Source of the DNA: Oscillospiraceae bacterium
Lineage (GTDB): Bacteria > Bacillota > Clostridia > Oscillospirales > Oscillospiraceae
Assembly: GCA_017456645.1 (NCBI GenBank)
Contig: JAFTIZ010000006.1
Coordinates: forward strand, 1 to 53,625
Length of the DNA stretch: 53,625 nt
Reading direction: 5' to 3'
In this document: piece by piece, positions 14,806 to 29,370 of the stretch
Layout: each line of letters starts with the position of its first letter
How positions within the stretch are numbered: position 1 is the first letter of the stretch
Position numbers and translations under genes: made by a program
The notes under the pieces: model-generated
What the model saw: only the letters and a program-made list of their open reading frames with translations
Told to the model about the DNA's origin: nothing
The model's database searches: none

Positions 14806-14807
14806 TT

Positions 14808-15068
14808 ATGAAACTGAAAGACGGATTTGTAACTCAGGAAATGGGCGGCGAGCAGATCATGGTCGCCACCGGCTCTGCCCATTTTTCCGGCCTCGTGCGC
14901 TCCAACCCCACTGCCGCGTTTATCGTTGACTCCCTGAAGGAGGATACTACTCGCGAAGCGATTATTGAAAAGATGTTGGCGCGTTACGATGCGTCTGTGG
15001 AGCTGATCTCTGCTGATGTGGACATGGTTTTGACCAAGCTGCGCAGCATTGAGGCTCTGGATGAGTAA
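14808..15068 (+). CDS. PqqD family (RiPP recognition element-like) protein
   Basis: An 86-residue protein with the PqqD layout: an N-terminal beta hairpin (FVTQEMGGEQIMVA), the conserved middle with NPTAAFIVDSLKE, and C-terminal helices ending in DVDMVLTKLRSIEALDE. PqqD-type domains are winged-helix modules that bind the leader of ribosomally made peptides and present them to modifying enzymes. It starts 2 bases after the kinase stop and overlaps the peptidase gene by 8 bases, so the three are translated together. The likely partner is the peptide encoded at 13654-13797, which is an inference. Confidence 0.85.
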   Translation: MKLKDGFVTQEMGGEQIMVATGSAHFSGLVRSNPTAAFIVDSLKEDTTREAIIEKMLARYDASVELISADVDMVLTKLRSIEALDE

Positions 15069-15525
15069 TAGCACATACGAGCAACAACTGCAGCAACACG
15101 GCTCTTTGATCTATACCAATGTGGGCGACAGTATGATGCCTCTTTTGCGGGAGCATCGGGATCTGCTCATTATTGAGAAACGTCCTGAAGGTCGGTGCCG
15201 GAAGCACGATATCGTGCTGTACCGCCGCCCCAGCGGAAAGTACATCCTGCATAGAATCATCAAGGTTCGGGACGAGGATTATATCATTGCCGGTGATAAT
15301 CGCTGGGAGCGGGAGATCGGTGTCAAGGATGATTGGATCTTCGGCATTCTGACCGGCGTGGTACGTGACGGGAAGAAAATTGAGCTGTCAGGCTGGAAAT
15401 ACAGATTGTATGTGTTTGCTTGGTGCGATCTGTTCTGGGTAAGGGCGGGTATTTTGTGGCTTTTAGACTTGCCCAGATGGATCAGAAGGCAGAAGAAGAA
15501 ACATGAAGCAAAAAAACAGCGATAA
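15061..15525 (+). CDS. S24/S26 family peptidase (signal peptidase-like)
   Basis: A 154-residue protease-like protein. The Ser-containing box NVGDSMMP (residues 20-27, Ser24) and the second box KYILHRIIKV (60-69) are in S26 order. The general base would be His64 rather than the Lys of bacterial LepB, as in the ER/archaeal type. GDNRWERE corresponds to the conserved GDN box. A hydrophobic C-terminal stretch (~115-140) and a basic tail suggest membrane association. It probably trims a leader in this locus. The start at 15061 overlaps the PqqD stop; an upstream in-frame ATG at 15049 is less likely. Its end overlaps the ABC gene by 23 bases. Confidence 0.8.
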   Translation: MSNSTYEQQLQQHGSLIYTNVGDSMMPLLREHRDLLIIEKRPEGRCRKHDIVLYRRPSGKYILHRIIKVRDEDYIIAGDNRWEREIGVKDDWIFGILTGVVRDGKKIELSGWKYRLYVFAWCDLFWVRAGILWLLDLPRWIRRQKKKHEAKKQR

Positions 15526-17206
15526 CAAGACCCTGAGTTGGCTTTGGGCCAGAGCAAAGGGCAAAAAAAGATACGTGGCATTGCTGATTGCGATTAGCAC
15601 GGTCATGGGTGTGCTCAGTGTTGGCTATGCGCTGTTCCTCAGCGGTATTGTGGATGCGGCTGTGGCTAAGGATTGGGAGCTGTTTTACTTATATTCCGGT
15701 TTGCTGATAGCGCAGATCGCAGTGCAGTTTGCTCTGCGCATGGTGCAGCATTTCCTTGAGGAGTATTCGAAAGCCTCACTGGAAAATGCCTTCAAGCGCC
15801 ATATGTTCCGTCAGCTGTTGACCGGAGATTACGCAGCGGTCACAGCGACCCATTCCGGTGAATGGTTGAGCCGCCTGACTTCGGATACCGTGGTTGTGGC
15901 CAATGCCATCACCGGCATTTTGCCCGGCATCATCGGCATGATCGTTCGCTTGGTCATGTCCCTGGGTTTGATGTTCTTCATTGTACCGATCTTCGGCATT
16001 GGCTTTATCGTAGGCGGTGCGGCGGTCATGCTTGTGACCTGGCTGCTTCGCCGGGGAATGAAGAAGCTCCACAAGCAGGTTCAGGTGGCTGACGGCGCGT
16101 TGCGGGTCTTCCTTACGGAGCGGCTGGGCAGCATGATGATCCTTCGTGCCTTTGGGCAGGAGGATTCTGCGGTGGATCAGGGCACGAAACTGATGAATGA
16201 CCATAAAACTGCCCGCATGAAGAAAAACCACATTTCCAACGTGTTCCACACCGGCTTCTCCTTGATTGTGAACGTGGTGTATGTGCTGGGTGCGATCTAC
16301 TGCGGTTATGGAATCCTAACCGGTACCATGTCCTACGGTTCCTTTACAGCTATGCTGCAGCTGGTAAGCCGGGTTCAGCAGCCTATTGGTAATATCTCCT
16401 CCTATCTTCCACAGTATTCCGCCATGCTTGCCAGCGCGGAGCGGCTGATGGAAGTGGAGAAGTATGCAACGGCTGAGGAGCCGGCTGCGGTGGAGAATAT
16501 GAATGTCTACTACAGCACGTCGTTCCGTGGCATCGGTTTGCGGAACGCAGGCTTCACCTATATGCCCGTAGGCGATGCCGAGGGCGATAAGCAGACCCAG
16601 CCGACGGTTCTGAAGAACCTGAACCTTGAGATCGCAAAAGGGGAGTACGTGGCATTTTGCGGCCCCTCCGGTTGCGGCAAGAGTACGGTGCTGAAGCTGC
16701 TGATGAGCATGTATGAGCTGGACGAGGGCGTGCGCTACCTGACGGACGGAGAAGGGGAGAAGCTCCTGACCACCGCCTGGCGTGGCCTTTTCGCCTATGT
16801 GCCCCAGGGCAACCAGCTGATGAGCGGTACTATCCGGGAGGTCGTGTCCTTTGCTGCTCCGGACAGAAAGGAAAGCGACGAGCAGATCTGGCGCGCCCTG
16901 ACCATTTCCTGTGCGGATCAGTTCATTTCCGAGCTGCCCGACGGTCTGGATACCCAGCTGGGCGAGCGAGGCGCCGGCTTGTCTGAAGGCCAGATGCAGC
17001 GCATTGCCATTGCCCGGGCGGTGTTTTCCGAGCGCCCCATCCTGCTGCTGGACGAAGCAACCAGCGCGCTGGATGAGCAGACGGAGGCACAGGTTCTGGA
17101 TAATCTGCGTAGCATGACGGATAAGACGGTCATCATCGTGACCCACCGCCCCAAGGCGCTGGAGATTACGGATAAGACTATCACCTTCAACCCCAATGAC
17201 AAATAA
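15503..17206 (+). CDS. ABC exporter, fused permease and ATPase
   Basis: A 567-residue half-exporter. Six membrane helices lie in residues ~20-310, followed by the nucleotide-binding domain with Walker A GPSGCGKST (387-395), signature LSEGQMQRIAIARA and Walker B ILLLDEATSALDE. There is no N-terminal C39 peptidase domain, so leader removal would fall to the S24/S26 peptidase encoded just upstream. It ends the operon and is followed by a clean terminator. Likely a peptide or lipopeptide exporter working as a homodimer. The substrate is inferred from context only. Confidence 0.88.
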   Translation: MKQKNSDNKTLSWLWARAKGKKRYVALLIAISTVMGVLSVGYALFLSGIVDAAVAKDWELFYLYSGLLIAQIAVQFALRMVQHFLEEYSKASLENAFKRHMFRQLLTGDYAAVTATHSGEWLSRLTSDTVVVANAITGILPGIIGMIVRLVMSLGLMFFIVPIFGIGFIVGGAAVMLVTWLLRRGMKKLHKQVQVADGALRVFLTERLGSMMILRAFGQEDSAVDQGTKLMNDHKTARMKKNHISNVFHTGFSLIVNVVYVLGAIYCGYGILTGTMSYGSFTAMLQLVSRVQQPIGNISSYLPQYSAMLASAERLMEVEKYATAEEPAAVENMNVYYSTSFRGIGLRNAGFTYMPVGDAEGDKQTQPTVLKNLNLEIAKGEYVAFCGPSGCGKSTVLKLLMSMYELDEGVRYLTDGEGEKLLTTAWRGLFAYVPQGNQLMSGTIREVVSFAAPDRKESDEQIWRALTISCADQFISELPDGLDTQLGERGAGLSEGQMQRIAIARAVFSERPILLLDEATSALDEQTEAQVLDNLRSMTDKTVIIVTHRPKALEITDKTITFNPNDK

Positions 17207-17469: not shown

Positions 17470-17498
17470 TTGCATTTTTCGGCCTGAAAGTCTATAAT
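17470..17498 (+). promoter_or_regulatory. Main promoter of the mdh-hdr-frd-fum operon
   Basis: TTGCAT (17470-17475), a 17-base spacer, TATAAT (17493-17498). It leaves an AT-rich leader of about 90 bases before the first ATG. Confidence 0.75.
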
Positions 17499-17593: not shown

Positions 17594-18541
17594 ATGAGCA
17601 GAAAAGTAACCATCATCGGCGCTGGCAATGTTGGTGCCACCATCGCCTACACCTTGTCCCTGGGCACCATTGCCTCCGAGATCGTTCTGATCGATATCAA
17701 CAAAGAGAAGGTCGAAGGCGAGGTCATGGATATCGTTCAGGGCGCCAGCTTCCGTGAACCCATCTCCGTCATCGCCGGTGATTATGAGGATGCCAGAGAT
17801 TCTAATATCGTCATCATCACCTCCGGCGTGGGACGTAAGCCCGGTCAGACCCGTATCGAGCTGGCTCAGACCAATGTGAACATCCTCAAGTCCATTACTC
17901 CGAAGATCGTGTCCGTGGCTCCCAACGCCCTGTACGTCATCGTCAGCAACCCTGTTGACATCATGACCTACGTGTTCACTAAGATCTCCGGCCTGCCCGA
18001 GAATCAAATCATCGGCTCCGGCACCGTGCTGGATACCGCACGGCTGCGCTATGACCTGAGCAAGCACTTCGGCGTAGCTCAGAAGAATATCCATGCCTAC
18101 GTCTTTGGTGAGCATGGTGATACATCCTTTGTGCCCTGGTCCTGCGCCGATATCTCCGGCTGCAGCCTGGCCGATTACGAGGATCTGATGATCAAGAAGG
18201 GCGTTGTTACCGAGCGTGTCGACCCCGATAAGACTCTGGAGTACGTCCGCAAGTCCGGCGGCGAGATCATTGCCAAGAAGGGCGCTACCTTCTATGCTGT
18301 TTCCGCCTCCGTTAACAAGATCTGCAACAGCCTTGTGGCGGCTTACGACTCCGTCAGCACCGTTTCTTCCATGATGCACGGCGAGTACGGCATCGAGGAC
18401 GTGTGCCTGAGCACCATGACCATCATCGGCCCCGACGGCGTCAAGGGCAAGGTTCCCGCCAAGCTGACCTACGAGGAGATCTCCAAGCTCCAGGCCAGCG
18501 CCAATGCCCTTAAGGAAGTTATCAGAAATTTGGACATTTAA
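17594..18541 (+). CDS. Lactate/malate dehydrogenase family protein, probable malate dehydrogenase
   Basis: A 315-residue NAD-dependent 2-hydroxyacid dehydrogenase. The Rossmann motif IIGAGNVGA is at residues 7-15, with Asp34 in LIDIN favouring NAD. Catalytic Asp147 and Arg150 are in GTVLDTARLR, and the proton-relay His174 is in FGEHGD. Overall it looks LDH-like. However, the specificity loop reads GVGRKPGQTR, with Arg81 at the position that is Gln in lactate dehydrogenases and Arg in malate dehydrogenases. With fumarase and fumarate reductase in the same operon I infer oxaloacetate to malate. Existing annotation would often say L-lactate dehydrogenase, which remains possible. AAAGGAG precedes the ATG. 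Confidence 0.8.
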   Translation: MSRKVTIIGAGNVGATIAYTLSLGTIASEIVLIDINKEKVEGEVMDIVQGASFREPISVIAGDYEDARDSNIVIITSGVGRKPGQTRIELAQTNVNILKSITPKIVSVAPNALYVIVSNPVDIMTYVFTKISGLPENQIIGSGTVLDTARLRYDLSKHFGVAQKNIHAYVFGEHGDTSFVPWSCADISGCSLADYEDLMIKKGVVTERVDPDKTLEYVRKSGGEIIAKKGATFYAVSASVNKICNSLVAAYDSVSTVSSMMHGEYGIEDVCLSTMTIIGPDGVKGKVPAKLTYEEISKLQASANALKEVIRNLDI

Positions 18542-18551
18542 GGTGATTCAT

Positions 18552-19337
18552 ATGACTTACAGCTATTATCCCGGCTGCACTCTGCGCAACAAAGCCAAGG
18601 ATCTGGACACTTATGCCAGAGCCTGTGCTGAGGCGCTGGGTTTCACCCTTGAGGAACTGGAAAACTGGCAGTGCTGCGGCGGCGTGTACCCTCTGGGTGC
18701 TGACGAGATCGCCAGCAAGCTGCCCTCTGTCCGCGCGCTGAACGCGGCCAAGGAAAAGGGTCAGGATCTGGTAGCGGTGTGCTCTGCCTGCTATCATGTG
18801 CTCAAGCGTGTCAATGATGACATGGCCAATGTAGAGGATATTCAGACCCGTGCCAACAATTACATGAAGCTGGATGCGCCTTACAAGGGCGAAACTCAGG
18901 TTCTGCACTTCCTGGAAGTGCTGCGGGATCGTGTGGGCTTTGACGAGCTGAAGAAGAAGGTCGTCAATCCTCTGACCGGCCGCAAGATCGGCGCCTACTA
19001 CGGCTGCCTGCTGCTGCGTCCCAGCAATGTGATGGCCTTTGACGATGCGGAGGATCCCACCATTCTGGAGAATTTTATCCGGGCGCTGGGTGCCACCCCC
19101 GTGATCTATCCCTATCGCAACGAATGCTGCGGTGGCTACATCAGCCTGAAGGAGAAGGAACTGGCGGCATCCATGTGCGACAAGATTACGGACTCCGCCG
19201 CCGGTTTTGAGGCGGATTGTCTGGTAACGGCCTGCCCTCTGTGCAAGTATAACCTTGCCAAGAGCGGTAAGCTGCCCATCGTGTATTTTACGGAGCTTCT
19301 GGCTGAGGCTTTGGGTGTAAAGGAGGGAGCGCTGTGA
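18552..19337 (+). CDS. hdrB: Heterodisulfide reductase-like subunit B
   Basis: A 261-residue protein with two CCG domains. The first has YYPGC, WQCCGG and CSACYH; the second has YYGCLLL, ECCGGY and CPLCKYN. In HdrB these bind two non-cubane [4Fe-4S] clusters that reduce a disulfide or another acceptor. The start at 18552 follows AAGGTGA. It is the first of an hdrBCA-flx set inside an operon with fumarate reductase, so its electron acceptor may be FrdB rather than a methanogen-type heterodisulfide. That acceptor is inference. The stop overlaps the hdrC GTG start. Confidence 0.9.
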   Translation: MTYSYYPGCTLRNKAKDLDTYARACAEALGFTLEELENWQCCGGVYPLGADEIASKLPSVRALNAAKEKGQDLVAVCSACYHVLKRVNDDMANVEDIQTRANNYMKLDAPYKGETQVLHFLEVLRDRVGFDELKKKVVNPLTGRKIGAYYGCLLLRPSNVMAFDDAEDPTILENFIRALGATPVIYPYRNECCGGYISLKEKELAASMCDKITDSAAGFEADCLVTACPLCKYNLAKSGKLPIVYFTELLAEALGVKEGAL

Positions 19338-19714
19338 ATAAGCAGGCAGAACTGATCAAGGAAATCTCCGGCGTGAACCCCCTGAAGTGCATGAAGTGCG
19401 GCAAGTGCTCCGCTTCCTGCCCTTCCTACAACGAGATGGACATCAAGCCCCATCAGTTTGTTTCCTATGTGATCAATGAGGACATCGAGGCGCTGACCGC
19501 CTCCAAGTCTTTGTACAAGTGCTTGAGCTGCTTTGCCTGCGTGGAGCGCTGCCCCCGTGGCGTGAAGCCCGGAAAGCTCATTGACGCGGCCCGTCAGGTT
19601 GTGATCCGTCAGAGAGGTCAGACGTATCTGTCCGCGGACGAGATCCCTGAGCTGCTGGACGACGAAACGCCCCAGCAGCTGCTGATGAGCGCATTCAGAA
19701 AGTATCGGAGGTGA
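19334..19714 (+). CDS. hdrC: Heterodisulfide reductase-like subunit C
   Basis: A 126-residue di-cluster ferredoxin-like protein. The [4Fe-4S] motifs are CMKCGKCSASCPS (residues ~19-31) and CLSCFACVERCP (~64-75), with helices between as in HdrC. It should pass electrons between HdrA and HdrB. It starts with GTG (19334), overlapping the hdrB TGA, and AGGAGG at 19321-19326 is well spaced. No unusual features are seen. Confidence 0.9.
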   Translation: MNKQAELIKEISGVNPLKCMKCGKCSASCPSYNEMDIKPHQFVSYVINEDIEALTASKSLYKCLSCFACVERCPRGVKPGKLIDAARQVVIRQRGQTYLSADEIPELLDDETPQQLLMSAFRKYRR

Positions 19715-19719
19715 GCTAG

Positions 19720-21708
19720 GTGCAGAAAATCGGTGTATTTGTATGCCACTGCGGCAGTAATATCGCTGCTACGGTGGACGTAAAGAAGGTCGTGGAGATG
19801 GCTCTGCTGGAGCAGGGCGTTGTCCATGCCGAGGATTATCCCTATATGTGCAGTGAAGCCGGCCAGTCCCGCATCGCTGCCGCCATCGCGGAAAAGGGTC
19901 TGACGGGTATCGTGGTCTGCTCCTGCTCTCCCAGAATGCATGAGGCCACCTTCCGTAAGGCCGCCGAGCGTGCTGGCCTGAACCCCTACATGGTGGAGAT
20001 TGCCAACATCCGTGAGCATTGCTCCTGGATCCATAAGGACATGGCTGAAGCCACTGAGAAGGCCACCATTCTCATGCGTGCCGCCGTTGCCAAGGTGCAT
20101 CTGAATGCTCCTCTGCAGGCCGGCGAGAGCATGGTCACCAAGCGTGCGCTGGTCATCGGCGGCGGCATCGCCGGCATCCAGACCGCCATCGACATTGCCG
20201 ATGCGGGCTATAAGGTGGATATTGTGGAGAAGACTCCCTCCATCGGCGGCCGTATGAGCCAGTTGGATAAGACTTTCCCCACCTTGGACTGCTCTGCCTG
20301 TATCCTGACACCCAAGATGGTGGAGGCGGCAGCCCATGAGAACATCACCATCCATACTTACAGCGAGGTGGAGAAGGTTTCCGGCTTCGTGGGCAATTTC
20401 ACCGTAGACATCCGCAAGAAGGCCCGCATGGTGGACATCACCAAGTGTACCGGCTGCGGCGTGTGTCAGGAAAAGTGCCCCTCCAAGAAAACGCCCAACG
20501 AATTTAACCGTGGCCTGAATAACCGCAGCGCCATCTATACCCCCTTCGCTCAGGCCATTCCCAATGTGCCTGTCATCGACACCACTGCCTGCATCAAGTT
20601 CAAGACCGGCAAGTGCGGTGTCTGCGAAAAGGTCTGTCAGGCCGGCGCTATCAACTATGCCCAGCAGGACGAGATCATCACCGAAACCTATGGCGCCATC
20701 GTAGTTGCCACCGGTTTCGATACCATCAAGCTGGATAAGTACGGCGAGTACGCCTACGGTCAGAGCAAGGATGTCATCACCTCTCTGGAGCTGGAGCGGG
20801 TCATGAACGCCGCTGGCCCCACCAAGGGCCATCTGGAGCGCCTTAGCGACGGCAAAGCGCCCAAGGAGATCGTATTCATCCAGTGCGTGGGCAGCCGCTG
20901 CTCCGACGACCGCGGCAAGCCCTACTGCTCCAAGATCTGCTGTATGTACACCGCCAAGCATGCCATGCTGATCCGGGATAAGTATCCCGATACCAACGTG
21001 ACCGTGTTCTACATCGATGTCCGTACCCCCGGCAAGAACTTCGACGAGTTCTACCGCCGTGCGGTGGAGGATTACGGTGTCAACTATATCAAGGGTCAGG
21101 TTGGCAAGGTCATTCCTCAGGCCGACGGCAGCCTGCTGGTGCAGGGCGTTGACCTGCTGGATCAGAAGCAGATCCTGAAGAAGGCTGATATGGTTGTTCT
21201 GGCTACCGCCATTGAGCCCAACCCCGATGTGCGCAAGATTGCCACCATGCTCACTGCCTCTATCGATACCAACAACTTCCTGACGGAGGCGCACCCCAAG
21301 CTGCGCCCTGTGGAATCTCCCACCGCCGGCGTGTTCCTGTCCGGTGTGTGCCAGGGTCCCAAGGATATTCCCGAAACCGTAGCCCAGGCCGGTGCGGCAG
21401 CCTCTAAGGTCATTGGTCTGCTTGCTAAGAACAAGCTCAAGACCAACCCCTGCACCGCCAAGGCCGACGAGCTGCTGTGTAACGGCTGCTCCACCTGTGC
21501 CAATGTTTGCCCCTACGGTGCCATTACTTATGAAACGAAGCTCATCAACGATCACGGCATCCGTGAGGATCGCCGGGTAGCGGTGGTCAACAATGCCCTG
21601 TGTCAGGGCTGCGGTGCTTGTACCGTTGCCTGCCCCAGCGGCGCTATGGATCTGCAGGGCTTCTCCAACCGTCAAATTCTCGCGGAGGTGGATGCAATAT
21701 GTCGATGA
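19720..21708 (+). CDS. hdrA: Heterodisulfide reductase-like subunit A, FAD and multi-Fe-S (candidate bifurcating subunit)
   Basis: A 662-residue iron-sulfur flavoprotein. Residues 1-130 form the N-terminal HdrA domain (FVCHCGSNIAATVD, VVCSCSPRMHEATF). The FAD-binding motif is VIGGGIAGIQTAIDIADAGY, followed by LDCSACILTPKM. Cluster motifs are CTGCGVCQEKCP, CIKFKTGKCGVCEKVC, CNGCSTCANVCP and CQGCGACTVACP. HdrA is the flavin-based electron-bifurcating subunit in methanogens and in bacterial Flx-Hdr complexes. The start is GTG at 19720, 5 bases after hdrC. The stop overlaps the next gene by 10 bases. Whether this copy bifurcates cannot be read from sequence alone. Confidence 0.9.
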   Translation: MQKIGVFVCHCGSNIAATVDVKKVVEMALLEQGVVHAEDYPYMCSEAGQSRIAAAIAEKGLTGIVVCSCSPRMHEATFRKAAERAGLNPYMVEIANIREHCSWIHKDMAEATEKATILMRAAVAKVHLNAPLQAGESMVTKRALVIGGGIAGIQTAIDIADAGYKVDIVEKTPSIGGRMSQLDKTFPTLDCSACILTPKMVEAAAHENITIHTYSEVEKVSGFVGNFTVDIRKKARMVDITKCTGCGVCQEKCPSKKTPNEFNRGLNNRSAIYTPFAQAIPNVPVIDTTACIKFKTGKCGVCEKVCQAGAINYAQQDEIITETYGAIVVATGFDTIKLDKYGEYAYGQSKDVITSLELERVMNAAGPTKGHLERLSDGKAPKEIVFIQCVGSRCSDDRGKPYCSKICCMYTAKHAMLIRDKYPDTNVTVFYIDVRTPGKNFDEFYRRAVEDYGVNYIKGQVGKVIPQADGSLLVQGVDLLDQKQILKKADMVVLATAIEPNPDVRKIATMLTASIDTNNFLTEAHPKLRPVESPTAGVFLSGVCQGPKDIPETVAQAGAAASKVIGLLAKNKLKTNPCTAKADELLCNGCSTCANVCPYGAITYETKLINDHGIREDRRVAVVNNALCQGCGACTVACPSGAMDLQGFSNRQILAEVDAICR

Positions 21709-22139
21709 ATAATGAAGAATTCCGCCCCGTAATCGTGGCGTTCTGCTGCAACTGGTGCAGCTATGCCGGCGCGGATCTGGCCGGCTCCAGCCGCCTGGCG
21801 TATCCCGCGGATGTGAAGATCATCCGTGTGCCTTGCTCCTGCCGTGTCAACCCCATGTTCATCCTCCGTGCCTTTGAAAAGGGCGCCGACGGCGTGATTC
21901 TGTGTGGTTGCCACCCCGGTGACTGCCACTACTCCACCGGTAACTATTATGCCCGCCGCCGTATGACCCTGCTGTTCAGCATGCTGGATTACATCGGCGT
22001 CGAAAACGGCCGTACCCGTGTGGAATGGGTTTCCGCTGCCGAGGGCGTGAAGTTCTCCGAAACCATGAACAGCTTCGTTGAGAAGATCCGTTCTCTGGGT
22101 CAAAACGTCAGATTGGGGGATTTGAGATGCAAGAACTGA
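21699..22139 (+). CDS. MvhD/FlxD-like [2Fe-2S] protein
   Basis: A 146-residue small iron-sulfur protein with the hallmark order FCCNWCSYAGAD, YPADVKIIRVPCSCRV, GADGVILCGCHPGDCHY, GNYYARRR. MvhD and FlxD bridge an electron-input module to HdrA through a [2Fe-2S] cluster. The start at 21699 was chosen from GGAGG at 21684-21688 and the usual protein beginning. It overlaps hdrA by 10 bases and the next gene by 13, so the complex is made stoichiometrically. The motif commonly reads CSGRV in relatives; here it is CSCRV. Confidence 0.88.
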   Translation: MSMNNEEFRPVIVAFCCNWCSYAGADLAGSSRLAYPADVKIIRVPCSCRVNPMFILRAFEKGADGVILCGCHPGDCHYSTGNYYARRRMTLLFSMLDYIGVENGRTRVEWVSAAEGVKFSETMNSFVEKIRSLGQNVRLGDLRCKN

Positions 22140-23092
22140 TCAATAGAGCCAAATCCCTCTTAGAATCCGGCGAAGTCGCACGGGTTCTGGGCTGGCGCAA
22201 GGGTGAAAATGTCTGGGACGTGGAGCCTGCCTTCTTCGGCAATGTCGACGAGCTGAGCGACTTCGTCTACAACGGCTTCTGCGGGGCCAACCTGAGCAAG
22301 TATATGATCGAGGCCTCCAAGCTGGAGGGGAAGACTCTGGTGTTCCTGAAGCCCTGCGATACTTACAGCTTCAATCAGCTGACCAAGGAGCATCGTGTGG
22401 ATCGGGAAAAGGCCTACATCATCGGTGTGGGCTGCGAGGGCAAGATTAGAGTGGAAAACATCGACGCAGCCGGTATTCTGGATGTGATCGGTGCCGACTA
22501 TCCCGGTCATGCCGAGAATCTCACCGTTAAGACTCTCTACGGTGACAAGGAAGTTTCCTACAAGTCCGCCATGCTGGAGCGCTGCCACGTCTGCAAGGGC
22601 AAGGAGCATATGGTCTATGACGAGCTGATGGGCGAAAGCACCGACACTATCGATGCTGACCGCTTTGCCGAGGTGGCTAAGATCGAGGCCATGAGCCCTG
22701 AGGAGAAGTTCGCCTTCTTCCAGAGCGAGCTTTCTAAGTGCATCCGCTGCAATGCCTGCCGGAATGTGTGCCCCGCCTGCTCCTGCCGCAAGTGCGTTTT
22801 CGACAGCACCAAGTTCGATTCCGCCCAGAAGGCCAACACCACCTCCTTTGAGGAGAAGATGTTCCACATCATCCGCGCTTTCCACGTGGCGGGTCGCTGC
22901 ACCGATTGCGGTGAATGCAGCCGTGTTTGCCCTCAGGGCATTCCGTTGCACCTGTTCAACCGCAAGTTCATCAAGGATATCAACGAGCTGTACGGCGATT
23001 TCCAGGCTGGTGCGGATATCGACACCAAGGGTCCGCTGACCAATTTCCGTCTGGACGATTGCGAGCCGGACATCGTGACCAAGAGGGGGTAA
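22127..23092 (+). CDS. FlxC-like FrhB-type 4Fe-4S protein
   Basis: A 321-residue protein. Residues ~1-170 resemble the FrhB/FdhB-type F420 hydrogenase beta family (LVFLKPCDTYSFNQL, IIGVGCEGK, ERCHVCKGKEH). The C-terminal half has the ferredoxin motifs CIRCNACRNVCPACSCRKC and CTDCGECSRVCP. It matches one of the iron-sulfur proteins encoded with FlxA in bacterial flx-hdr clusters; which label (FlxB or FlxC) is correct is uncertain. No F420 function is expected in this organism. It lies within tightly packed operon genes, 4 bases before the next start. Confidence 0.8.
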   Translation: MQELINRAKSLLESGEVARVLGWRKGENVWDVEPAFFGNVDELSDFVYNGFCGANLSKYMIEASKLEGKTLVFLKPCDTYSFNQLTKEHRVDREKAYIIGVGCEGKIRVENIDAAGILDVIGADYPGHAENLTVKTLYGDKEVSYKSAMLERCHVCKGKEHMVYDELMGESTDTIDADRFAEVAKIEAMSPEEKFAFFQSELSKCIRCNACRNVCPACSCRKCVFDSTKFDSAQKANTTSFEEKMFHIIRAFHVAGRCTDCGECSRVCPQGIPLHLFNRKFIKDINELYGDFQAGADIDTKGPLTNFRLDDCEPDIVTKRG

Positions 23093-23096
23093 TGCT

Positions 23097-24122
23097 ATGC
23101 TGAAGATCAAAAAGAGCGATCTGGCTGCCCTCTTTGCCAGAATTTCCGAGAAAAACGACCTGTTCCTGCCGGTAAAAACCGCCGGTAAGACCAATTTTGC
23201 TGCATGGGATGAAGCTGCCGACGTGGATCTGGACACTTTGAAGACCGTTAAGTCTCCCAAGGATGCCTTCTTCCCCCAGAGCGAGAATCTGTACACCTGT
23301 AACCGTGAGGACGGCAAGCTGAAGGTCAGCCCCGAAAAGCTCACCGACGAGCCCTTCGTGCTGTTCGGTATCCGTGCCTGCGATGTCCGGGCGATTGACG
23401 TGCTGGATCGGGTGTTCCTCAGTGAGCCTGTGGACAGCTACTATGCTGCCCGTCGGGAGCATGGCATCATCGTGTCTTACGCCTGCAACAACCCCGAAAC
23501 CTCTTGCTTCTGTAAGGTTTTCGGCATCGATGCTGCCGTTCCTGCCGGTGACGTGGTCACTTGGATGGTAGGCGAAGAGCTGTACTGGGAGGCTAAGACC
23601 GAGAAGGGCGAAGCCCTGACCGCTCAGGTTCGTGACCTGCTGGTGGATGCCGATGTTGCCACCGTGGAAGCGGCGCAGGCTGCCATCCGCAGCATCATCG
23701 AAAAGCTGCCCAACTCCAACCTTTCTCTGGAGGGCTGGGGCGCTGAGGCGGCCAAGACGAGGTTCGACAGCCCCGTATGGGAGCAGTTGTATAAGCCCTG
23801 TCTGGCCTGCGGCACCTGCACCTTCGTATGCCCCACCTGCCAGTGCTACGACATTAAGGACTATAATACCGGCAACGGTGTCCAGCGCTTCCGCTGCTGG
23901 GACAGCTGTATGTATTCCGACTTTACCATGATGGCTCACGGCAACAACCGTACCAGCCAGATGCAGCGCTTCCGTCAGCGGTTCCTGCACAAGCTGGCCT
24001 ACTATCCTGCTAACAATGAGGGTATGTTCTCCTGCGTCGGCTGCGGTCGCTGCGTGGATAAGTGCCCCAGCCATCTGAACATCGTTAAGGTCATCAAGGC
24101 CTTTGAAAAGGAGGGTGTGTGA
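23097..24122 (+). CDS. FlxB-like 4Fe-4S dicluster protein (HydB/AsrA type)
   Basis: A 341-residue protein like the beta subunit of sulfhydrogenases and AsrA of anaerobic sulfite reductase. Seen: VLFGIRACDVRAIDVLDRVF near residue 90, SYACNNPETSCFCKVFG, and two clusters, CLACGTCTFVCPTCQCYD and CVGCGRCVDKCPSHLN. In that architecture it carries electrons between the flavin subunit (next gene) and the rest of the complex. Its stop shares a base with the start of the FlxA-like gene. The family is confident and the exact partner naming less so. Confidence 0.82.
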   Translation: MLKIKKSDLAALFARISEKNDLFLPVKTAGKTNFAAWDEAADVDLDTLKTVKSPKDAFFPQSENLYTCNREDGKLKVSPEKLTDEPFVLFGIRACDVRAIDVLDRVFLSEPVDSYYAARREHGIIVSYACNNPETSCFCKVFGIDAAVPAGDVVTWMVGEELYWEAKTEKGEALTAQVRDLLVDADVATVEAAQAAIRSIIEKLPNSNLSLEGWGAEAAKTRFDSPVWEQLYKPCLACGTCTFVCPTCQCYDIKDYNTGNGVQRFRCWDSCMYSDFTMMAHGNNRTSQMQRFRQRFLHKLAYYPANNEGMFSCVGCGRCVDKCPSHLNIVKVIKAFEKEGV

Positions 24123-24985
24123 TGGAAGCCATGCACGAATGTAAGCACAATCCCGGCTTCATGCGGGATACTTTGGTGCCTATGGTGGGCATCATCACCG
24201 ACATCCGCACCGAAACTCCCGATGTCAAGACCTTCCGTGTCAACGCCCCTGAGGGCGGCAAGCTCTTTGAGCATCTGCCCGGCCAGTGCGCCATGGTCTG
24301 CGTTCCCGGTGTGGGCGAGGCTATGTTTTCCATCACTTCTTCTCCAACCAATAAGGAGTATCAGGAGTTCTCCATCAAGCGCTGCGGCGTGCTGACGGAG
24401 CATCTGCACTCCATGCAGGTGGGCGACGAGATCATGGTTCGCGGCCCCTACGGCAACAATTTCCCCGTGGAAACCGAGCTGAAGGGCAAGAATCTGCTGT
24501 TCATCGCCGGCGGTATCGCACTGGCGCCTCTGCGCAGTGTCATTAACTACTGTCTTGACAATCGGGAGAACTATGGCGAGATCGACATCCTCTACGGCTC
24601 CCGCTCTGCTGACGATCTGGTTCAGCGCAAGGAGATCGAGGAGGTCTGGTGCAAGCAGCCCGGTGTTAATGTGCATCTGACCATCGACCGTGAGCAGGAA
24701 GGCTGGGACGGCCACGTTGGCTTCGTGCCTTCTTATCTGAAGGAACTGGCCTTCGATACCAACCGCACTGCTATCCTCTGCGGCCCTCCCATCATGATCA
24801 AGTTTTGCTTGCAGGGTCTGAAGGAAATGGGCTTTGCTATGGAGCAGGTCTATACCACGTTGGAGCTGCGCATGAAGTGCGGCGTGGGCAAATGCGGCCG
24901 CTGCAACATCGGCACTAAGTACGTCTGCAAGGACGGCCCCGTGTTCCGCTTCGACCAGGTTGACGAACTGCCTAACGAATATTAA
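24122..24985 (+). CDS. FlxA-like ferredoxin-NAD(P)+ reductase family protein
   Basis: A 287-residue FAD/NAD(P)-binding protein of the HydG/AsrB/FNR type. An FAD beta-barrel (residues ~10-105, with a MFSITSSP FAD motif) is followed by a nucleotide-binding domain (LLFIAGGIALAPLRSVINY, LYGSRSADDLV, CGPPIMIKF). The C-terminal CGVGKCGRCNIG plus a later Cys binds a [2Fe-2S] cluster, as in PyrK-like proteins. In Flx complexes this subunit oxidises NADH. The start at 24122 forms a TGATG overlap with the previous stop; a GTG at 24119 is also possible. Confidence 0.87.
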   Translation: MEAMHECKHNPGFMRDTLVPMVGIITDIRTETPDVKTFRVNAPEGGKLFEHLPGQCAMVCVPGVGEAMFSITSSPTNKEYQEFSIKRCGVLTEHLHSMQVGDEIMVRGPYGNNFPVETELKGKNLLFIAGGIALAPLRSVINYCLDNRENYGEIDILYGSRSADDLVQRKEIEEVWCKQPGVNVHLTIDREQEGWDGHVGFVPSYLKELAFDTNRTAILCGPPIMIKFCLQGLKEMGFAMEQVYTTLELRMKCGVGKCGRCNIGTKYVCKDGPVFRFDQVDELPNEY

Positions 24986-25002
24986 GGAGGACGATACCAG
25001 AT

Positions 25003-25677
25003 ATGAGCAATATGGTAAATGTCTATTTTTACGGCAAAAGGTACTCTGTTCCCGGTGATCTGACTATCATGACCGCCATGGAGTACGCCGGCTATACTCT
25101 CAAGCGGGGCTGCGGCTGCCGCCACGGCTTCTGCGGCGCCTGCGCCACCATCTACCGCATCAAGGGCTGCAACGAGCTGAAGACCTGTCTGGCCTGCCAG
25201 ACTCAGGTGCAGGAGGGCATGTATGTTGCCTCCATTCCGTTCTTCCCCACGGATAAGCGAACCTACGATATCAACACCATCAAGGCTGACCAGCGGGTAA
25301 TGATGGAGCTGTATCCTGAGATCTACGCCTGCATTGGCTGCAACGCCTGCACCAAGGCCTGTACCCAGAGCCTGAATGTCATGCAGTACATTGCTTACGC
25401 CCAGCGCGGCGAGCTGGAAAAGTGCGCCGAGGAGAGCTTCGATTGCGTCGGCTGCGGCTGCTGCTCCGTCCGCTGCCCCGCCGGCATCAGCCATCCCATG
25501 GTTGGTCTGCTGGCTCGCCGGCTCACCGGCAAGTACATCGCTCCTGAAACCAAGCACCTGACAGATCGGGTCAATGAGATCAACGCCGGTGCTTACGACG
25601 AGCTGATCGAGGCAATTATGCAGAAGCCCATCAGCGAGATGCAGGAACTGTACAACCACCGCGATATCGAGAAGTAA
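25003..25677 (+). CDS. frdB: Fumarate reductase/succinate dehydrogenase iron-sulfur subunit
   Basis: A 224-residue electron-transfer subunit. The N-terminal [2Fe-2S] domain has CGCRHGFCGACATIY and CLAC. The C-terminal half has CIGCNACTKACTQS and CVGCGCCSVRCP. No HdrB-type CCG domain is fused, unlike TfrB of methanogens. No cytochrome b or membrane anchor gene accompanies it, so the enzyme should be soluble. It lies between the Flx-Hdr genes and frdA, suggesting HdrB or FlxA hands electrons to it. TAAGGAGGACG precedes the ATG. Confidence 0.88.
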   Translation: MSNMVNVYFYGKRYSVPGDLTIMTAMEYAGYTLKRGCGCRHGFCGACATIYRIKGCNELKTCLACQTQVQEGMYVASIPFFPTDKRTYDINTIKADQRVMMELYPEIYACIGCNACTKACTQSLNVMQYIAYAQRGELEKCAEESFDCVGCGCCSVRCPAGISHPMVGLLARRLTGKYIAPETKHLTDRVNEINAGAYDELIEAIMQKPISEMQELYNHRDIEK

Positions 25678-25690
25678 GGAGGGGAATACC

Positions 25691-27289
25691 ATGTTTACAC
25701 CTGAAATGATGGAATCCATTAAGAAAGTGGAAGCCACCCGTGAAGCGCGTATGGCCGTGGAGCCCCGCCGCATGACCGCGGAGGAAAAGAGCGAACTGCT
25801 GAAGGCTTACCATCCTGACTATCGGCCTGAGGGCTTCAAGGAGATCAAGATCGGACCCAACAAGGGTCAGAAGGCTCCCGTGGAGCTGGCTGACCTGCTG
25901 CACTCCAACAGCCGTCTGCTGAACGAGAATATCGACCTGAGTAAGATCGACTACGATGTGGACGTTCTGGTCATCGGCGGCGGCGGTGCCGGCTGCTCCG
26001 CTGCCATCGAGGCTCACGAGGCCGGTGCCAATGTTATGGTGGTCACCAAGCTGCGTATCGGTGATGCCAATACCATGATGGCCGAGGGCGGTATTCAGGC
26101 TGCCGACAAGCCCAATGACAGCCCTGTGCAGCACTATCTGGATGCCTTTGGCGGCGGTCACTTCGCTGCCCGTCCCGAGCTGCTGCGCCGTCTGGTCATG
26201 GAAGCCCCTGATGCCATTCAGTGGCTGAACAAGCTGGGCGTTATGTTTGATAAATACGAGGATGGCACCATGGTCACCACCCACGGTGGCGGTACTTCCC
26301 GCAAGCGTATGCACGCCTGCAAGGACTACTCCGGCGCGGAGATCATGCGCACTGTTCGTGACGAGGTTTTGAACCGTAAGATTCCCGTGGTGGAGTTCAC
26401 TTCCGCTGTGGAGCTGATCAAGGACGACAAGGGGCAGGTCGCCGGTGCTGTTCTGCTGAACATGGAAACCGACGATTATCTGGTTGCCCGTGCCAAGACC
26501 GTCATCATCGCCACCGGCGGTGCCGGACGTCTGCACTATCAGAATTTCCCCACCTCCAACCACTACGGTGCCACCGCAGACGGCCTGATTCTGGGCTACC
26601 GTGCCGGTGCACCTCTGCTGTATCAGGATACCATCCAGTATCACCCCACCGGTGTGGCTTATCCCAGCCAGATCTTCGGTGCGCTGGTCACCGAGAAGGT
26701 TCGGTCGTTAGGCGCTATGCTGGTCAACAAGGATGGCGAGGCCTATGCCCATCCTCTGGAAACCAGAGACGTTTCCGCATCTGCCATCATTCGGGAGTGC
26801 GCGGGCGGCAAGGGTGTGGATACCCCTCTGGGCAGCGGTGTCTGGCTGGATACGCCCATGATCGAAATGATCCATGGCGAAGGCACCATTGAAAAGAGAA
26901 TCCCCGCCATGCTGCGTATGTACCTGAACTACGGCATTGATATGAGAAAGGTGCCAATTCTGGTCTATCCCACTCTGCACTACCAGAACGGCGGCCTGGA
27001 GATCGGCGGCGAGGGCTATACCAAGGCCATCCCCAACCTGCTGGTTGCCGGCGAGGCCGTGGGCGGAATCCATGGCCGCAACCGCCTGATGGGCAACTCT
27101 CTGCTGGATATCATCGTCTTCGGCCGTAATGCCGGTAAGGCTGCCGCCCGCCGTGCTGCCGAGACCCAGCTGAGCGAGATGAACTTGGATCATATCAAGG
27201 CTTACGCCGATGAATTGGCGGCTGCCGATTGCGCTGAGGAAGGCGTTTCTCCGCTGCTGCTGCCCAATTACGCCCGTCACCAGCGCTAA
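25691..27289 (+). CDS. frdA: Soluble fumarate reductase flavoprotein subunit
   Basis: A 532-residue flavoprotein. A charged N-terminal extension of about 88 residues precedes the FAD motif VLVIGGGGAGCSAAIEAHEAG. Active-site signatures are present: QYHPTG (His318), ETRDVSASAI (Arg359) and HGRNRLMGNSLLD. The residue equivalent to the covalent-FAD His of FrdA/SdhA is Asn127 (DANTMMAEGG), so FAD is probably non-covalent, as in soluble fumarate reductases and L-aspartate oxidase. Context (FrdB beside it, fumarase after it) favours fumarate to succinate. L-aspartate oxidase is disfavoured because no nadA or nadC is near. Confidence 0.87.
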   Translation: MFTPEMMESIKKVEATREARMAVEPRRMTAEEKSELLKAYHPDYRPEGFKEIKIGPNKGQKAPVELADLLHSNSRLLNENIDLSKIDYDVDVLVIGGGGAGCSAAIEAHEAGANVMVVTKLRIGDANTMMAEGGIQAADKPNDSPVQHYLDAFGGGHFAARPELLRRLVMEAPDAIQWLNKLGVMFDKYEDGTMVTTHGGGTSRKRMHACKDYSGAEIMRTVRDEVLNRKIPVVEFTSAVELIKDDKGQVAGAVLLNMETDDYLVARAKTVIIATGGAGRLHYQNFPTSNHYGATADGLILGYRAGAPLLYQDTIQYHPTGVAYPSQIFGALVTEKVRSLGAMLVNKDGEAYAHPLETRDVSASAIIRECAGGKGVDTPLGSGVWLDTPMIEMIHGEGTIEKRIPAMLRMYLNYGIDMRKVPILVYPTLHYQNGGLEIGGEGYTKAIPNLLVAGEAVGGIHGRNRLMGNSLLDIIVFGRNAGKAAARRAAETQLSEMNLDHIKAYADELAAADCAEEGVSPLLLPNYARHQR

Positions 27290-27317
27290 CACATCATCAT
27301 CGAATGGAGGAAACCCC

Positions 27318-28160
27318 ATGAGAGAAATTTCTGTCAATCTCATTACCGACGTGGTGGAGCGGCTTTGCATCGAAGCCAATACCCACCTGCCCGGTGATGT
27401 GCAGTGCGCCCTTGAGTCCTGCCGCGCCTGCGAGGACGGCAGCATCGCTCAGGGTGTGCTGGACAAGATTATTGAAAATTACAACATTGCTGACCGGGAG
27501 AATGTTCCCATCTGTCAGGACACCGGCATGGCCTGCGTGTTTCTGGAGATCGGTCAGGATGTCCACTTCGTCGGCGGCGACCTGAGGGAAGCGGTGGATG
27601 AGGGTGTGCGCCGTGGCTATACCAATGGTTACCTGCGCAAGAGCGTGGTGGGCGACCCCGTTCGCCGTGGCAACACCGGTGACAATACCCCTGCCATGCT
27701 CTACACCGAGATCGTTCCCGGTGAAAATGTGAAGATCACCGTTGGCCCCAAGGGCTTCGGCAGCGAGAATATGAGCGCCATCCGGATGTTCAAGCCCTCT
27801 GCCGGTCTGCAGGGCATCAAGGACTTCATCATCGAAACGGTTGAAAACGCCGGCCCCAACCCCTGTCCGCCCATGGTGGTGGGCGTGGGCATTGGCGGCA
27901 CCTTCGATAAGGCCGCCCTGCTGGCGAAAAAGGCCATCATGCGTCCTCTGGATGTGCCGAATCCCGATCCGTTCTATGCGGATCTGGAGAAGGAAATGCT
28001 GGAAAAGGTCAACGCGCTGGGCATCGGCCCTCAGGGCTTCGGCGGCAAAACCACTGCCATCGGCCTGAACATCGAGACTCTGCCCACCCACATTGCCGGT
28101 ATGCCCTGCGCCATCAACATCAACTGCCACGTGACCCGGCATAAGACGGAGGTGCTGTAA
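27318..28160 (+). CDS. Class I fumarate hydratase, alpha subunit
   Basis: A 280-residue [4Fe-4S] hydro-lyase subunit of the two-subunit FumA/TtdA family. The cluster cysteines are visible in VPICQDTGMACVFLE, NPCPPMVVGVGIGG and INCHVTRH. It interconverts malate and fumarate with the beta subunit encoded next. L(+)-tartrate dehydratase is the alternative for this family, but frdAB and a malate dehydrogenase-like gene in the same operon favour fumarase. The start at 27318 follows TGGAGG; an earlier in-frame ATG lies inside frdA. Confidence 0.9.
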   Translation: MREISVNLITDVVERLCIEANTHLPGDVQCALESCRACEDGSIAQGVLDKIIENYNIADRENVPICQDTGMACVFLEIGQDVHFVGGDLREAVDEGVRRGYTNGYLRKSVVGDPVRRGNTGDNTPAMLYTEIVPGENVKITVGPKGFGSENMSAIRMFKPSAGLQGIKDFIIETVENAGPNPCPPMVVGVGIGGTFDKAALLAKKAIMRPLDVPNPDPFYADLEKEMLEKVNALGIGPQGFGGKTTAIGLNIETLPTHIAGMPCAININCHVTRHKTEVL

Positions 28161-28161
28161 G

Positions 28162-28716
28162 ATGGAAAAGCATATCACCCTGCCTCTGACCGAGGAGCTG
28201 GCGAGAAGCCTGAAGGCCGGTGATACGGTTTATCTCACCGGTACCATCTATACCTCCCGTGATGCCGGCCACAAGCGGATGTGCGAGGCGCTGGCAAGGG
28301 GAGAGGCACTGCCCTTTGATCCTCAGGATGCGGTCATCTACTATGTTGGCCCCGCTCCGGCCAAGCCCGGTCAGGTCATTGGCTCCGCGGGCCCCACCAC
28401 TGCCGGCCGTATGGATGCCTACGCCCCCACTATGATGAGCGTGGGTGCCCGTGGCATGATCGGCAAGGGCGCACGTCTGCCCGAGGTAGTGGAAGCCATG
28501 AAGAAGTATTCCGGCGTGTACTTTGGCGCCATCGGCGGCGCCGGTGCGCTGCTGGCCAAGTGCATTAAGTCCGCCGAGCTGATCGCGTTCGAAGATCTGG
28601 GTGCGGAGGCGCTGCGCAAGCTGTATGTGGAGGATATGCCTCTGTTCGTCATCATCGACAGCGAGGGCAACAACCTTTACGAAACCGGCCGCGCCGACTA
28701 TCTGGCACAGAAGTAA
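28162..28716 (+). CDS. Class I fumarate hydratase, beta subunit
   Basis: A 184-residue C-terminal-domain subunit that contributes the swivel part of the fumarase active site. Conserved features are YLTGTIYTSRDAGHKRM, the substrate loop SAGPTTAGRMDAYAP, GARGMIGKGA and GAIGGAGALLAKCI. It begins 1 base after the alpha-subunit stop. It is the last gene of the mdh-hdr-flx-frd-fum operon and is followed by a perfect bidirectional terminator. Confidence 0.9.
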   Translation: MEKHITLPLTEELARSLKAGDTVYLTGTIYTSRDAGHKRMCEALARGEALPFDPQDAVIYYVGPAPAKPGQVIGSAGPTTAGRMDAYAPTMMSVGARGMIGKGARLPEVVEAMKKYSGVYFGAIGGAGALLAKCIKSAELIAFEDLGAEALRKLYVEDMPLFVIIDSEGNNLYETGRADYLAQK

Positions 28717-28720
28717 ATAA

Positions 28721-28750
28721 AAAAGCACCGCCATTTGGCGGTGCTTTTTT
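28721..28750 (+). terminator. Bidirectional terminator between fumarase genes and rnpB
   Basis: AAAAGCACCGCC (28721-28732), ATTT loop, GGCGGTGCTTTT (28737-28748), then TT. On the minus strand the same stem ends in a T run just after the rnpB 3' end, so it ends both convergent transcripts. Confidence 0.95.
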
Positions 28751-28752
28751 GC

Positions 28753-29260
28753 GCGACACGGGTCTATAAGCCGGGTTCTGTCTTGACAGCCATCTATCTA
28801 GCCTTACGATCGCTCGTAAGATCAAGCCGCCTCCTCGAAGCGGTCGGGCAGACCTATTGCTTCTCCACGGCGTTGCTCCGGGATAGAGTTTACATCGTTT
28901 TTAAGGTCGCCATGAAAAAGTTATTTTTGCCGGAGCGGCGGATTCTTTACCACATTTCTTCGCCGTGAAGACCTTGAAATACACGAAGTATTCCTGCGGC
29001 CTTCACAGCTTGAACTGTGGCAAATTCTCTCGCCATCCAATCAAAAATCCCTTTTACATGGCTCCCAAACCCATGTTACCATGGGCCGGGTGGGCTCTTA
29101 CCCCACCTTTTCACCCTTACCTTGCGGCGGTATATCTCTGTTGCACTTGTCCTGAGGTCACCCTCGGCGGGCGTTACCCGTTATCCTTGCCCTGCGGAGC
29201 CCGGACTTTCCTCATCCGGAACCTTTCGGTTTCCGTCCGCGGCTGTCCGACCCGGTCGCG
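28753..29260 (-). ncRNA. rnpB: RNase P RNA, type A
   Basis: On the minus strand the sequence contains the universal core GAGGAAAGTCCGGGCTCC about 45 bases from the 5' end, GGGTAACGCCCG after it, and near the 3' end CAGAACCCGGCTTATAGACC. The two ends (GCGACCGGGTC and GACCCGTGTCGC) pair as helix P1. Length is about 508 bases, longer than typical type A, with extra stem-loops in the middle (for example around CTTCACGGCGAAG). It is the ribozyme that removes tRNA 5' leaders. Apparent open frames on the plus strand here are artefacts. The 5' end is set by the promoter at 29266-29294. Confidence 0.95.
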
Positions 29261-29265
29261 GAAAT

Positions 29266-29294
29266 ATTGTAGCGCAAAGCGCCCCAATTGTCAA
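29266..29294 (-). promoter_or_regulatory. rnpB promoter
   Basis: Minus strand: TTGACA (29289-29294), a 17-base spacer, TACAAT (29266-29271). It places the transcript start at about 29259, matching the predicted RNA 5' end. Confidence 0.9.
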
Positions 29295-29300
29295 ATCCCC

Positions 29301-29329
29301 TTGCAAATTCTTTTCGCAGCGGATATACT
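29301..29329 (+). promoter_or_regulatory. murD promoter
   Basis: TTGCAA (29301-29306), a 17-base spacer, TATACT (29324-29329). Its -35 box lies 6 bases from that of the divergent rnpB promoter. Confidence 0.7.
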
Positions 29330-29370
29330 ATATCTTAGATGTAGAATATAAGATATGAGATGTAAGATAT
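29330..29370 (+). repeat. Short AT-rich direct and inverted repeats in the murD leader
   Basis: ATATCTTA (29330-29337) is the inverse of TAAGATAT, which occurs twice (29349-29356 and 29363-29370). The copies are separated by GAGATG, so both a hairpin and a tandem unit are possible. Confidence 0.7.

Follow-up and report, generated by a model that had tools for sequence, protein, structure and literature searches.

How a fumarate reductase encoded without a membrane anchor receives its electrons is the question raised by a gene cluster in a 53,625-nucleotide stretch of Oscillospiraceae DNA (hereafter the window; contig JAFTIZ010000006.1 of GCA_017456645.1, an assembly of 1.15 Mb that is 53% complete). 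Twelve collinear open reading frames (ORFs) are present on the + strand at positions 17594-28716, in the order mdh, hdrB, hdrC, hdrA, flxD, flxC, flxB, flxA, frdB, frdA, fumA-alpha and fumA-beta, and the gene set for a fumarate reductase coupled to a Flx-Hdr module (hdrABC, flxABCD, frdAB and fumarase) is complete. The initial annotation had described twelve packed collinear genes here, and this was borne out by family searches and by the gene order kept in relatives. The reading favoured below, with a probability of roughly two in three, is that a soluble complex would carry out an NADH-driven bifurcation of electrons to ferredoxin and, via HdrC, HdrB and FrdB, to fumarate.

The conservation of the operon was studied using FrdA relatives from one scan of genome contigs, the best 80 of 584 being taken as named loci. 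These 80 belong to Oscillospiraceae, Lachnospiraceae and other gut Clostridia; the nearest by FrdA are Oscillospiraceae metagenome-assembled genomes (up to 95% identity) from the gut of deer and of cattle, and the named strains Blautia glucerasea (L087) and Faecalicatena contorta (L122) also carry the operon. The order hdrB-hdrC-hdrA-flxD-flxC-flxB-flxA-frdB-frdA was kept in all 58 named loci whose sequence reaches 7.6 kb or more upstream of frdA. The synteny survey across Clostridia that had been called for therefore showed that the joining of hdrBCA-flx to frdBA is not confined to the source genome. The fumAB genes followed frdA within 3.5 kb in 56 of the 64 named loci with room, and mdh came first in 42 of the 56 with room at that end. 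The gap between frdA and fumA exceeded 1 kb in 24 of the 56 loci with fumAB, and the two intervening genes scanned (L065 and L104) encode Asp-Al_Ex permeases, a family that includes succinate exporters. The gene content of the operon and its conservation are matters of direct observation.

Next, whole genomes were surveyed, with only the best first-look candidates being scored (three per genome in the FrdA search of 398 genomes). Among 150 genomes of the same family, a close FrdA was found in 13, FlxD in 20 and both in 12 (Fisher 9e-12), and in all 12 the two genes were on one contig, ~ 4 kb apart. A single genome had FrdA only (G021, 63% complete, with the match at a contig edge), and eight had FlxD only. 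In the 398 genomes of the phylum, where a close FrdA was defined as at least 53% identity over the whole length, 39 genomes had one; FlxD was present in 35 of these compared with 121 of the 359 others.

The relationship between HdrB and the fumarate reductase was explored in a tree of 79 HdrB rows (for which the Oscillospiraceae/Lachnospiraceae group was reduced from 69 rows to 25, with the window added). All 43 frd-linked rows formed one clade (Shimodaira-Hasegawa-like approximate likelihood ratio support 99, stem 0.84), with none of the 36 others inside. The clade takes in HdrBs whose companions are Flx and HdrA, HdrC alone or two HdrAs, and the four HdrBs from molybdenum-linked Flx-Hdr loci lie outside it. 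A thinned rerun gave the clade a support of 100, and the grouping together of Flx-carrying HdrBs was rejected (approximately unbiased test, p-AU 5e-41). It is because of the loci with hdrBC only and the molybdenum-linked rows that HdrB is singled out here.

Genomes in which the two parts are encoded separately gave the same picture. Seven genomes (G159, G333, G498, G358, G383, G518 and G239) carry frdBA without an hdr neighbour, and in 7/7 an HdrB encoded elsewhere fell within the frd-linked clade. Each of these seven HdrBs lies in an hdrBCA-flxDCBA operon without an adjoining fumarate reductase, of which L279 ends at a contig edge before flxA; in G239, a frd-type HdrB and an frdBA locus of the NapC/FMN type are both present. 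In five genomes where frdBA has cytochrome-type neighbours, none of the 14 HdrBs was in the clade. Across the 398 genomes, a frd-type HdrB (at least 200 bits) was detected in 28, comprising 28/39 of those with a close FrdA and 0/359 of the others (Fisher 2e-34). The best HdrB in genomes without a close FrdA scored 192.4 bits (G531), and among 40 such genomes that are FlxD-positive the best match was 186.9 bits, with 41% identity over the full length. This co-occurrence is the best indirect evidence for bifurcation and for direct transfer. No report of a frd-specific HdrB clade, or of such a survey of gut Clostridia, was met in the open PubMed Central (PMC) literature searched.

The frd-linked HdrBs also have a shorter tail (median 34, range 28-64, vs 61, range 52-233, in the others), and a tyrosine after the second CCG motif is present in 43/43 linked and 6/7 unlinked members. 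Ser78 was considered as a clade marker and set aside, being found in 43/43 linked rows but only 2/7 unlinked ones, and a count of gap lengths, which matched 36/43 and 16/36 rows, was not used. The HdrB of f16/f62 joins the group of the window (97) and the corresponding FrdA groups elsewhere (95), a disagreement between trees that suggests HdrB and FrdA may have been re-paired in these lineages.

The Flx-Hdr subunits were then examined individually, with motifs counted in ORFs above score cuts in loci L062-L198. HdrB (18552-19337) is a CCG-family protein of the frd type that carries the two CCG motifs and ends in a short tail, and is the proposed adaptor to FrdB; the cysteines of both motifs were kept in 87/87 sequences. 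Against the NCBIfam model for SdhE, the anchor of 8-methylmenaquinol:fumarate reductase, HdrB scored 147.5 bits, under the cut-off of 500. HdrC (19334-19714) is a dicluster protein with two [4Fe-4S] motifs, and its eight cluster cysteines were kept in 86/86. HdrA (19720-21708; HdrA2, NF040770, 800 bits) is a flavin adenine dinucleotide (FAD) protein that would be expected to bifurcate: the FAD domain is present, the cluster cysteines of both ferredoxin domains were kept in 81-82 of 82 sequences, and the protein aligned over its full length with 5odc_A, a bifurcating HdrA of solved structure (E 3e-205). FlxD (21699-22139) is of the MvhD/FlpD type (PF02662, 1.4e-54) and links FlxABC to HdrA. FlxC (22127-23092) was recognized as an Fe-S protein by family search, and FlxB (23097-24122) as a Fer4_22 Fe-S protein resembling ShyB/AsrA. 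FlxA (24119-24985) is the proposed point of electron entry, an FAD/NAD(P)H flavoprotein like DHODB/AsrB with a [2Fe-2S] domain (PF00175, PF00970 and PF10418). All seven genes are on the + strand, as are those described next.

FrdA (25691-27289) is a FAD_binding_2 flavoprotein whose best NCBIfam model is TfrA, at 338 bits against a cut-off of 718. Among 126 full-length ORFs above a score of 600, six catalytic or substrate residues (H, E and four R/H) were invariant and a threonine was kept in 125, with one serine; these positions are presumed equivalent to those numbered in the E. coli and Shewanella enzymes. The histidine site for covalent FAD was asparagine in 126/126, and on this account the FAD is expected to be non-covalently bound. 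FrdA also carries an N-terminal extension, conserved and ~ 85 residues long, and its chain stops shortly past the FAD domain. L-aspartate oxidase was discarded as an identity, as NadB models scored below TfrA and the genes for FrdB, fumarase and mdh are adjacent, and FrdA is very likely a fumarate reductase.

FrdB (25003-25677) combines a [2Fe-2S] domain with two [4Fe-4S] motifs and has no [3Fe-4S] motif. The [2Fe-2S] cysteines and the eight cysteines for the two [4Fe-4S] clusters were kept in 120/120 sequences, except Cys37 (119/120). An extra Cys151 was present in 120/120, so that the [3Fe-4S] motif of quinol:fumarate reductase is missing; we take Cys151 to replace this motif of quinone-linked enzymes. 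Neither an anchor gene in the operon nor the covalent-FAD histidine of complex II was found. By sequence, FrdB matched solved chains only weakly; most of these were ferredoxin-like, and a single SdhB (9kpt_B, 1.5e-5) came up in the profile search. Scores against the TfrB model were at most 42.4 bits (cut-off 385), and FrdB, HdrC and HdrB of the window matched TfrB at 19-87, 123-219 and 379-466, respectively. FrdB and HdrB are encoded by separate genes in the window, and no TfrB-like FrdB-HdrB fusion was found among 12 families in loci L062-L198.

The remaining genes of the operon would complete a four-carbon branch. The product of mdh (17594-18541; Ldh_1) has the fold of lactate and malate dehydrogenases, and its best NCBIfam model is L-lactate dehydrogenase (TIGR01771, 328.1 bits, cut-off 303.55). 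Residue 81, however, is arginine in the window and in all 51 relatives scored; this is presumably the substrate-specificity position at which arginine marks malate dehydrogenases. On the strength of Arg81 the lactate dehydrogenase label was set aside, and the gene probably encodes a malate dehydrogenase, in keeping with its first description as malate dehydrogenase-like. A class I fumarase is encoded by fumA-alpha (27318-28160; Fumerase, NF004885, 411 bits) and fumA-beta (28162-28716; Fumerase_C, NF005310, 288 bits).

Taken together, the gene set would convert oxaloacetate to malate (Mdh), fumarate (FumAB) and succinate (FrdBA) in a branch joined to the bifurcation machine. Electrons from NADH would enter at FlxA and pass through FlxB/FlxC and FlxD to the HdrA flavin. 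From there the low-potential electron would go by the HdrA ferredoxin domains to ferredoxin, and the high-potential electron by HdrC, the two non-cubane clusters of HdrB and FrdB to the FrdA flavin and fumarate. The net reaction would be 2 NADH + Fd(ox) + fumarate -> 2 NAD+ + Fd(red) + succinate (Fd, ferredoxin), and the reduced ferredoxin could be turned into an ion gradient by Rnf. The NADH-fed Flx-Hdr module is likely to be the donor of FrdBA; bifurcation, direct contact and transfer between HdrB and FrdB, direction and stoichiometry are all inferred from the genes. With commonly known redox potentials, and with that of ferredoxin set between -0.50 and -0.42 V, the standard free energy was estimated at -33 to -49 kJ/mol.

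The physiological setting was assessed in the 16 genomes with the operon, 11 of them from the same family and seven of those at least 95% complete. RnfC was above its cut-off in 15/16 (10/11 within the family), the exception being G012. UbiA, which is expected for menaquinone synthesis, was found in 0/11 same-family genomes and in 3/16 overall, compared with 14/14 controls. The Sdh_cyt anchor was found in 0/11 and in 1/16 overall, with a model that detects only 7/14 controls. The host is likely a quinone-free fermenter with ferredoxin-driven ion pumping. The initial annotation had envisaged a soluble, anchor-free fumarate reductase, with ferredoxin as the low-potential and fumarate as the high-potential acceptor and with HdrB feeding FrdAB directly. 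The match of HdrA to 5odc_A, the missing UbiA and Sdh_cyt and the synteny all point to the soluble, NADH-fed enzyme, with bifurcation itself being predicted. The frd-specific HdrB clade and the co-occurrence in 28 of 28 genomes argue for the HdrB connection. Direct transfer is a prediction as well, however, and not every FrdBA of this subfamily is driven by Hdr.

Other explanations of the locus were weighed against this one. Flx-HdrABC might reduce a soluble disulfide, either a small thiol or a DsrC-like protein, with FrdAB drawing on the thiol pool as a split thiol:fumarate reductase. The intact CCG motifs of HdrB and the match of FrdB, HdrC and HdrB to successive parts of TfrB would fit such an arrangement, and, going by the title of a 2023 report by Ferreira, DsrC of Desulfovibrio vulgaris is said to interact directly with FlxABCD-HdrABC. 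With one HdrB only in the operon and no HdrB domain in FrdB, however, nothing would be left to oxidize the thiol, and a common thiol pool does not predict that HdrB sorts with the presence of FrdBA; the explanation is considered unlikely. It is decidedly improbable that the enzyme is a plain NADH:fumarate reductase in which Hdr acts just as a conduit for electrons and leaves ferredoxin unreduced. Although electron transfer from NADH to fumarate alone is strongly exergonic (-68 kJ/mol), both HdrA ferredoxin domains keep their cluster cysteines and match 5odc_A throughout, and Rnf gives reduced ferredoxin a use.

That FrdAB and Flx-Hdr are separate enzymes merely co-regulated in one operon is rated lower again. 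They are encoded apart in seven genomes and FrdBA occurs without a frd-type HdrB in 11/39, but the window operon shows no other donor gene, and the hdr-flx operon contains a frd-type HdrB even when it stands apart (7/7). The system could also run in reverse, oxidizing succinate together with reduced ferredoxin at the expense of NAD+ (confurcation), and this is the explanation to which the least weight is given. Bifurcating enzymes are reversible in principle, and at L182 (f59) frdA lies beside a 2-oxoacid:ferredoxin oxidoreductase; the permease genes found in the frdA-fumA gap, from a family with succinate exporters, speak for succinate production instead. So does Pseudoclostridium thermosuccinogenes, which makes succinate and has a matching operon according to the accessible part of PMC7282089.

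Several observations weigh against NADH-driven bifurcation to fumarate, or limit the argument from HdrB. The 200-bit HdrB cut and the frd clade were both defined after the data had been seen. Of the 39 genomes with a close FrdA, 11 have no frd-type HdrB; cytochrome-type genes adjoin frdBA in five of these (G182, G223, G228, G188 and G530), its absence from G219, G444, G528, G216 and G278 is unexplained, and in G402, where it was likewise not found, the contig is cut. A frd-only clade was not rejected for HdrA (p-AU 0.15) or FlxA (0.12), so HdrB is not proven to be the unique follower of FrdBA. HdrB keeps both disulfide-reducing clusters, leaving room for a free thiol, a disulfide or a DsrC-like carrier, and less favourable assumed ratios bring the free energy to -10 to -15 kJ/mol. 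In Riftia symbionts, the tfrAB expression pattern differs from that of the Hdr-Flx cluster, as far as the accessible text of PMC11636981 describes it.

The variety of partners seen around FrdBA and Flx-Hdr bears on the role of HdrB. Four loci (L155, L157, L191 and L192) carry frdBA with hdrBC alone and no hdrA or flx nearby, and the f59 loci and L148 have hdrCBA with a second HdrA and flxD. At L158, L188, L189 and L190 the hdr-flx genes are downstream, not upstream, of frdBA. Elsewhere frdBA is accompanied by a cytochrome b561-type protein bearing an Fe-S domain (L142-L144, one ORF cluster, Pfam run on L142) or by NapC-type cytochrome and/or FMN_bind Fe-S genes (L145, L150 and L153), and further loci had no adjacent redox partner. 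In the FrdA tree (58 rows), hdr linkage requires at least three changes. The f69/f67 neighbours of frdBA (pyruvate carboxylase, radical SAM, MFS, ABC, ThiG and FMN-reductase) offered no clear electron donor.

Eight same-family genomes have Flx genes without a close FrdA. In four of these loci the neighbour is a gene of molybdopterin oxidoreductase size (assigned by Pfam at L205 and L201), three have MetF/MetV-sized genes with no HdrB found (Pfam on L199), and the eighth is L200, described below. A more general proposal, which we hold to be evenly balanced, is that HdrB is a dedicated adaptor setting the acceptor of a general NADH-driven Flx-HdrA core. A frd-specific lineage would plug into the soluble fumarate reductase; in other Flx-Hdr operons of the same family the partner would be a molybdopterin oxidoreductase, served by another HdrB, or MetF/MetV, where no HdrB was found. 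Core and reductase might be encoded apart yet matched, so that the type of HdrB would predict the reductase.

Some of these loci are of separate interest. At L205 (385-4247) and L201 (1-2598), and also at L202 and L204, all in the same family, an AhtL-like molybdopterin oxidoreductase and a four-cluster ferredoxin-like protein lie beside hdrCBA-flx (domains assigned on L205 and L201 only), forming a putative Flx-Hdr-linked molybdenum reductase. At L200 (10744-12603), FlxD, FlxB and FlxA adjoin an oxidoreductase of the DAO type that carries a BFD [2Fe-2S] domain, and no HdrB was found nearby. In L182 (1513-5449) and the f59 loci, frdBA, two HdrAs and flxD adjoin a 2-oxoacid:ferredoxin oxidoreductase (Pfam on L182) in an arrangement like that of the reductive tricarboxylic acid (TCA) cycle. 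At L161, L194 and L195, frdBA adjoins a gene of 1144 amino acids for pyruvate carboxylase (Pfam on L161), in genomes without a FlxD or HdrB match.

The boundaries of the operon were also inspected. Gene junctions range from -13 to +28 nucleotides, a purine-rich stretch was seen by eye ahead of every start, and start codons were revised for hdrB (18552), flxD (21699) and fumA-alpha (27318). A promoter-like TTGCAT-17-TATAAT (17470-17498, + strand) lies upstream; it was picked by eye and is not among the sites of a promoter scan, which showed no surplus in the window (7 found, 6.7 expected), and for these reasons a single promoter is only plausible. A terminator-like hairpin of 14 pairs (28719-28750) lies between fumA-beta and rnpB; the scan assigned it to the - strand, yet T-runs are present on both flanks, and such sites were not in surplus in the window (11 found, 9.0 expected). 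Transcription from one promoter to one terminator, as first proposed, agrees with a hairpin after the last gene. The RNase P RNA gene rnpB (28750-29258, - strand, RF00010, 223.9 bits) adjoins the operon end, and the ORFs listed at 28965-29358, which overlap this RNA gene, are probably spurious. Elsewhere in the window are an S10-Clostridia ribosomal protein leader (RF03136, 52299-52374, + strand) and, at 14062-17206 on the + strand, a run of ORFs for a weak HprK/ScmC-like protein, a signal-peptidase-like protein and an exporter-type ABC transporter, which may together mature and export a peptide.

If bifurcation to fumarate is correct, quinone-free Clostridia would conserve energy when making succinate, one of the main hydrogen sinks of anaerobic guts, via ferredoxin and Rnf and not by a membrane fumarate reductase, and ATP accounting for these fermenters would change. 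Fumarate/succinate would join the high-potential couples of flavin-based bifurcation, and frd-type HdrB would be a sequence marker predicting the acceptor of an Hdr complex.

The concept of a bifurcating fumarate reductase is not new. In the accessible part of a paper on P. thermosuccinogenes (PMC7282089, 2020), which cites a 2019 preprint, a 'succinate operon' is described whose products are a fumarate hydratase, the Flx-Hdr complex (seven genes), a fumarate reductase (two genes) and a putative transporter for succinate, and the authors assume that fumarate reduction is linked to ferredoxin reduction. From this published description, the operon shares Flx-Hdr, a two-gene fumarate reductase and fumarase with the window, which differs in that it adds mdh, splits its fumarase over two genes and has no transporter gene within the operon, although many relatives carry an extra gene there. 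Direct transfer from flxABCD-hdrABC to tfrAB and korABCD was proposed for Gammaproteobacteria (Thioflavicoccus mobilis and tubeworm symbionts) in the available portion of PMC6315080 (2019), and that of PMC11636981 (2024) repeats the model for tubeworm symbionts. There, as described, Flx-Hdr genes are interspersed with a TfrAB-type fumarate reductase as in the window, but those clusters belong to a gammaproteobacterial reductive TCA cycle with 2-oxoglutarate:ferredoxin oxidoreductase and TfrAB, whereas the window has a split FrdB and HdrB. The interpretation first placed on the locus thus stands as a predicted soluble NADH-fed reductase, with its concept already in print as a proposal in these three papers and with FrdBA not always Hdr-driven; the window operon is a widespread further case of a proposed, unproven kind.

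In the methanogen thiol:fumarate reductase TfrAB, an HdrB-like domain is fused within TfrB. Among NCBIfam models it is TfrA that scores highest with FrdA, yet the window scores lie far below the cut-offs and its HdrB is separate and tied to HdrA and Flx. The FlxABCD-HdrABC of Desulfovibrio, reportedly described by Ramos in 2015, has the same seven subunit types as the window. Its proposed partner is DsrC, according to the accessible text of PMC10920352, in place of FrdBA, and the corresponding text of PMC4215793 has Hdr/flox without biochemical study by 2014. Finally, in HdrABC-MvhAGD (5odc), HdrA aligns end to end with that of the window and HdrB and FlxD/MvhD are homologous; a hydrogenase stands where the window has its NADH module, and the window HdrB is ~ 30% identical going by the alignment, with a shorter tail.

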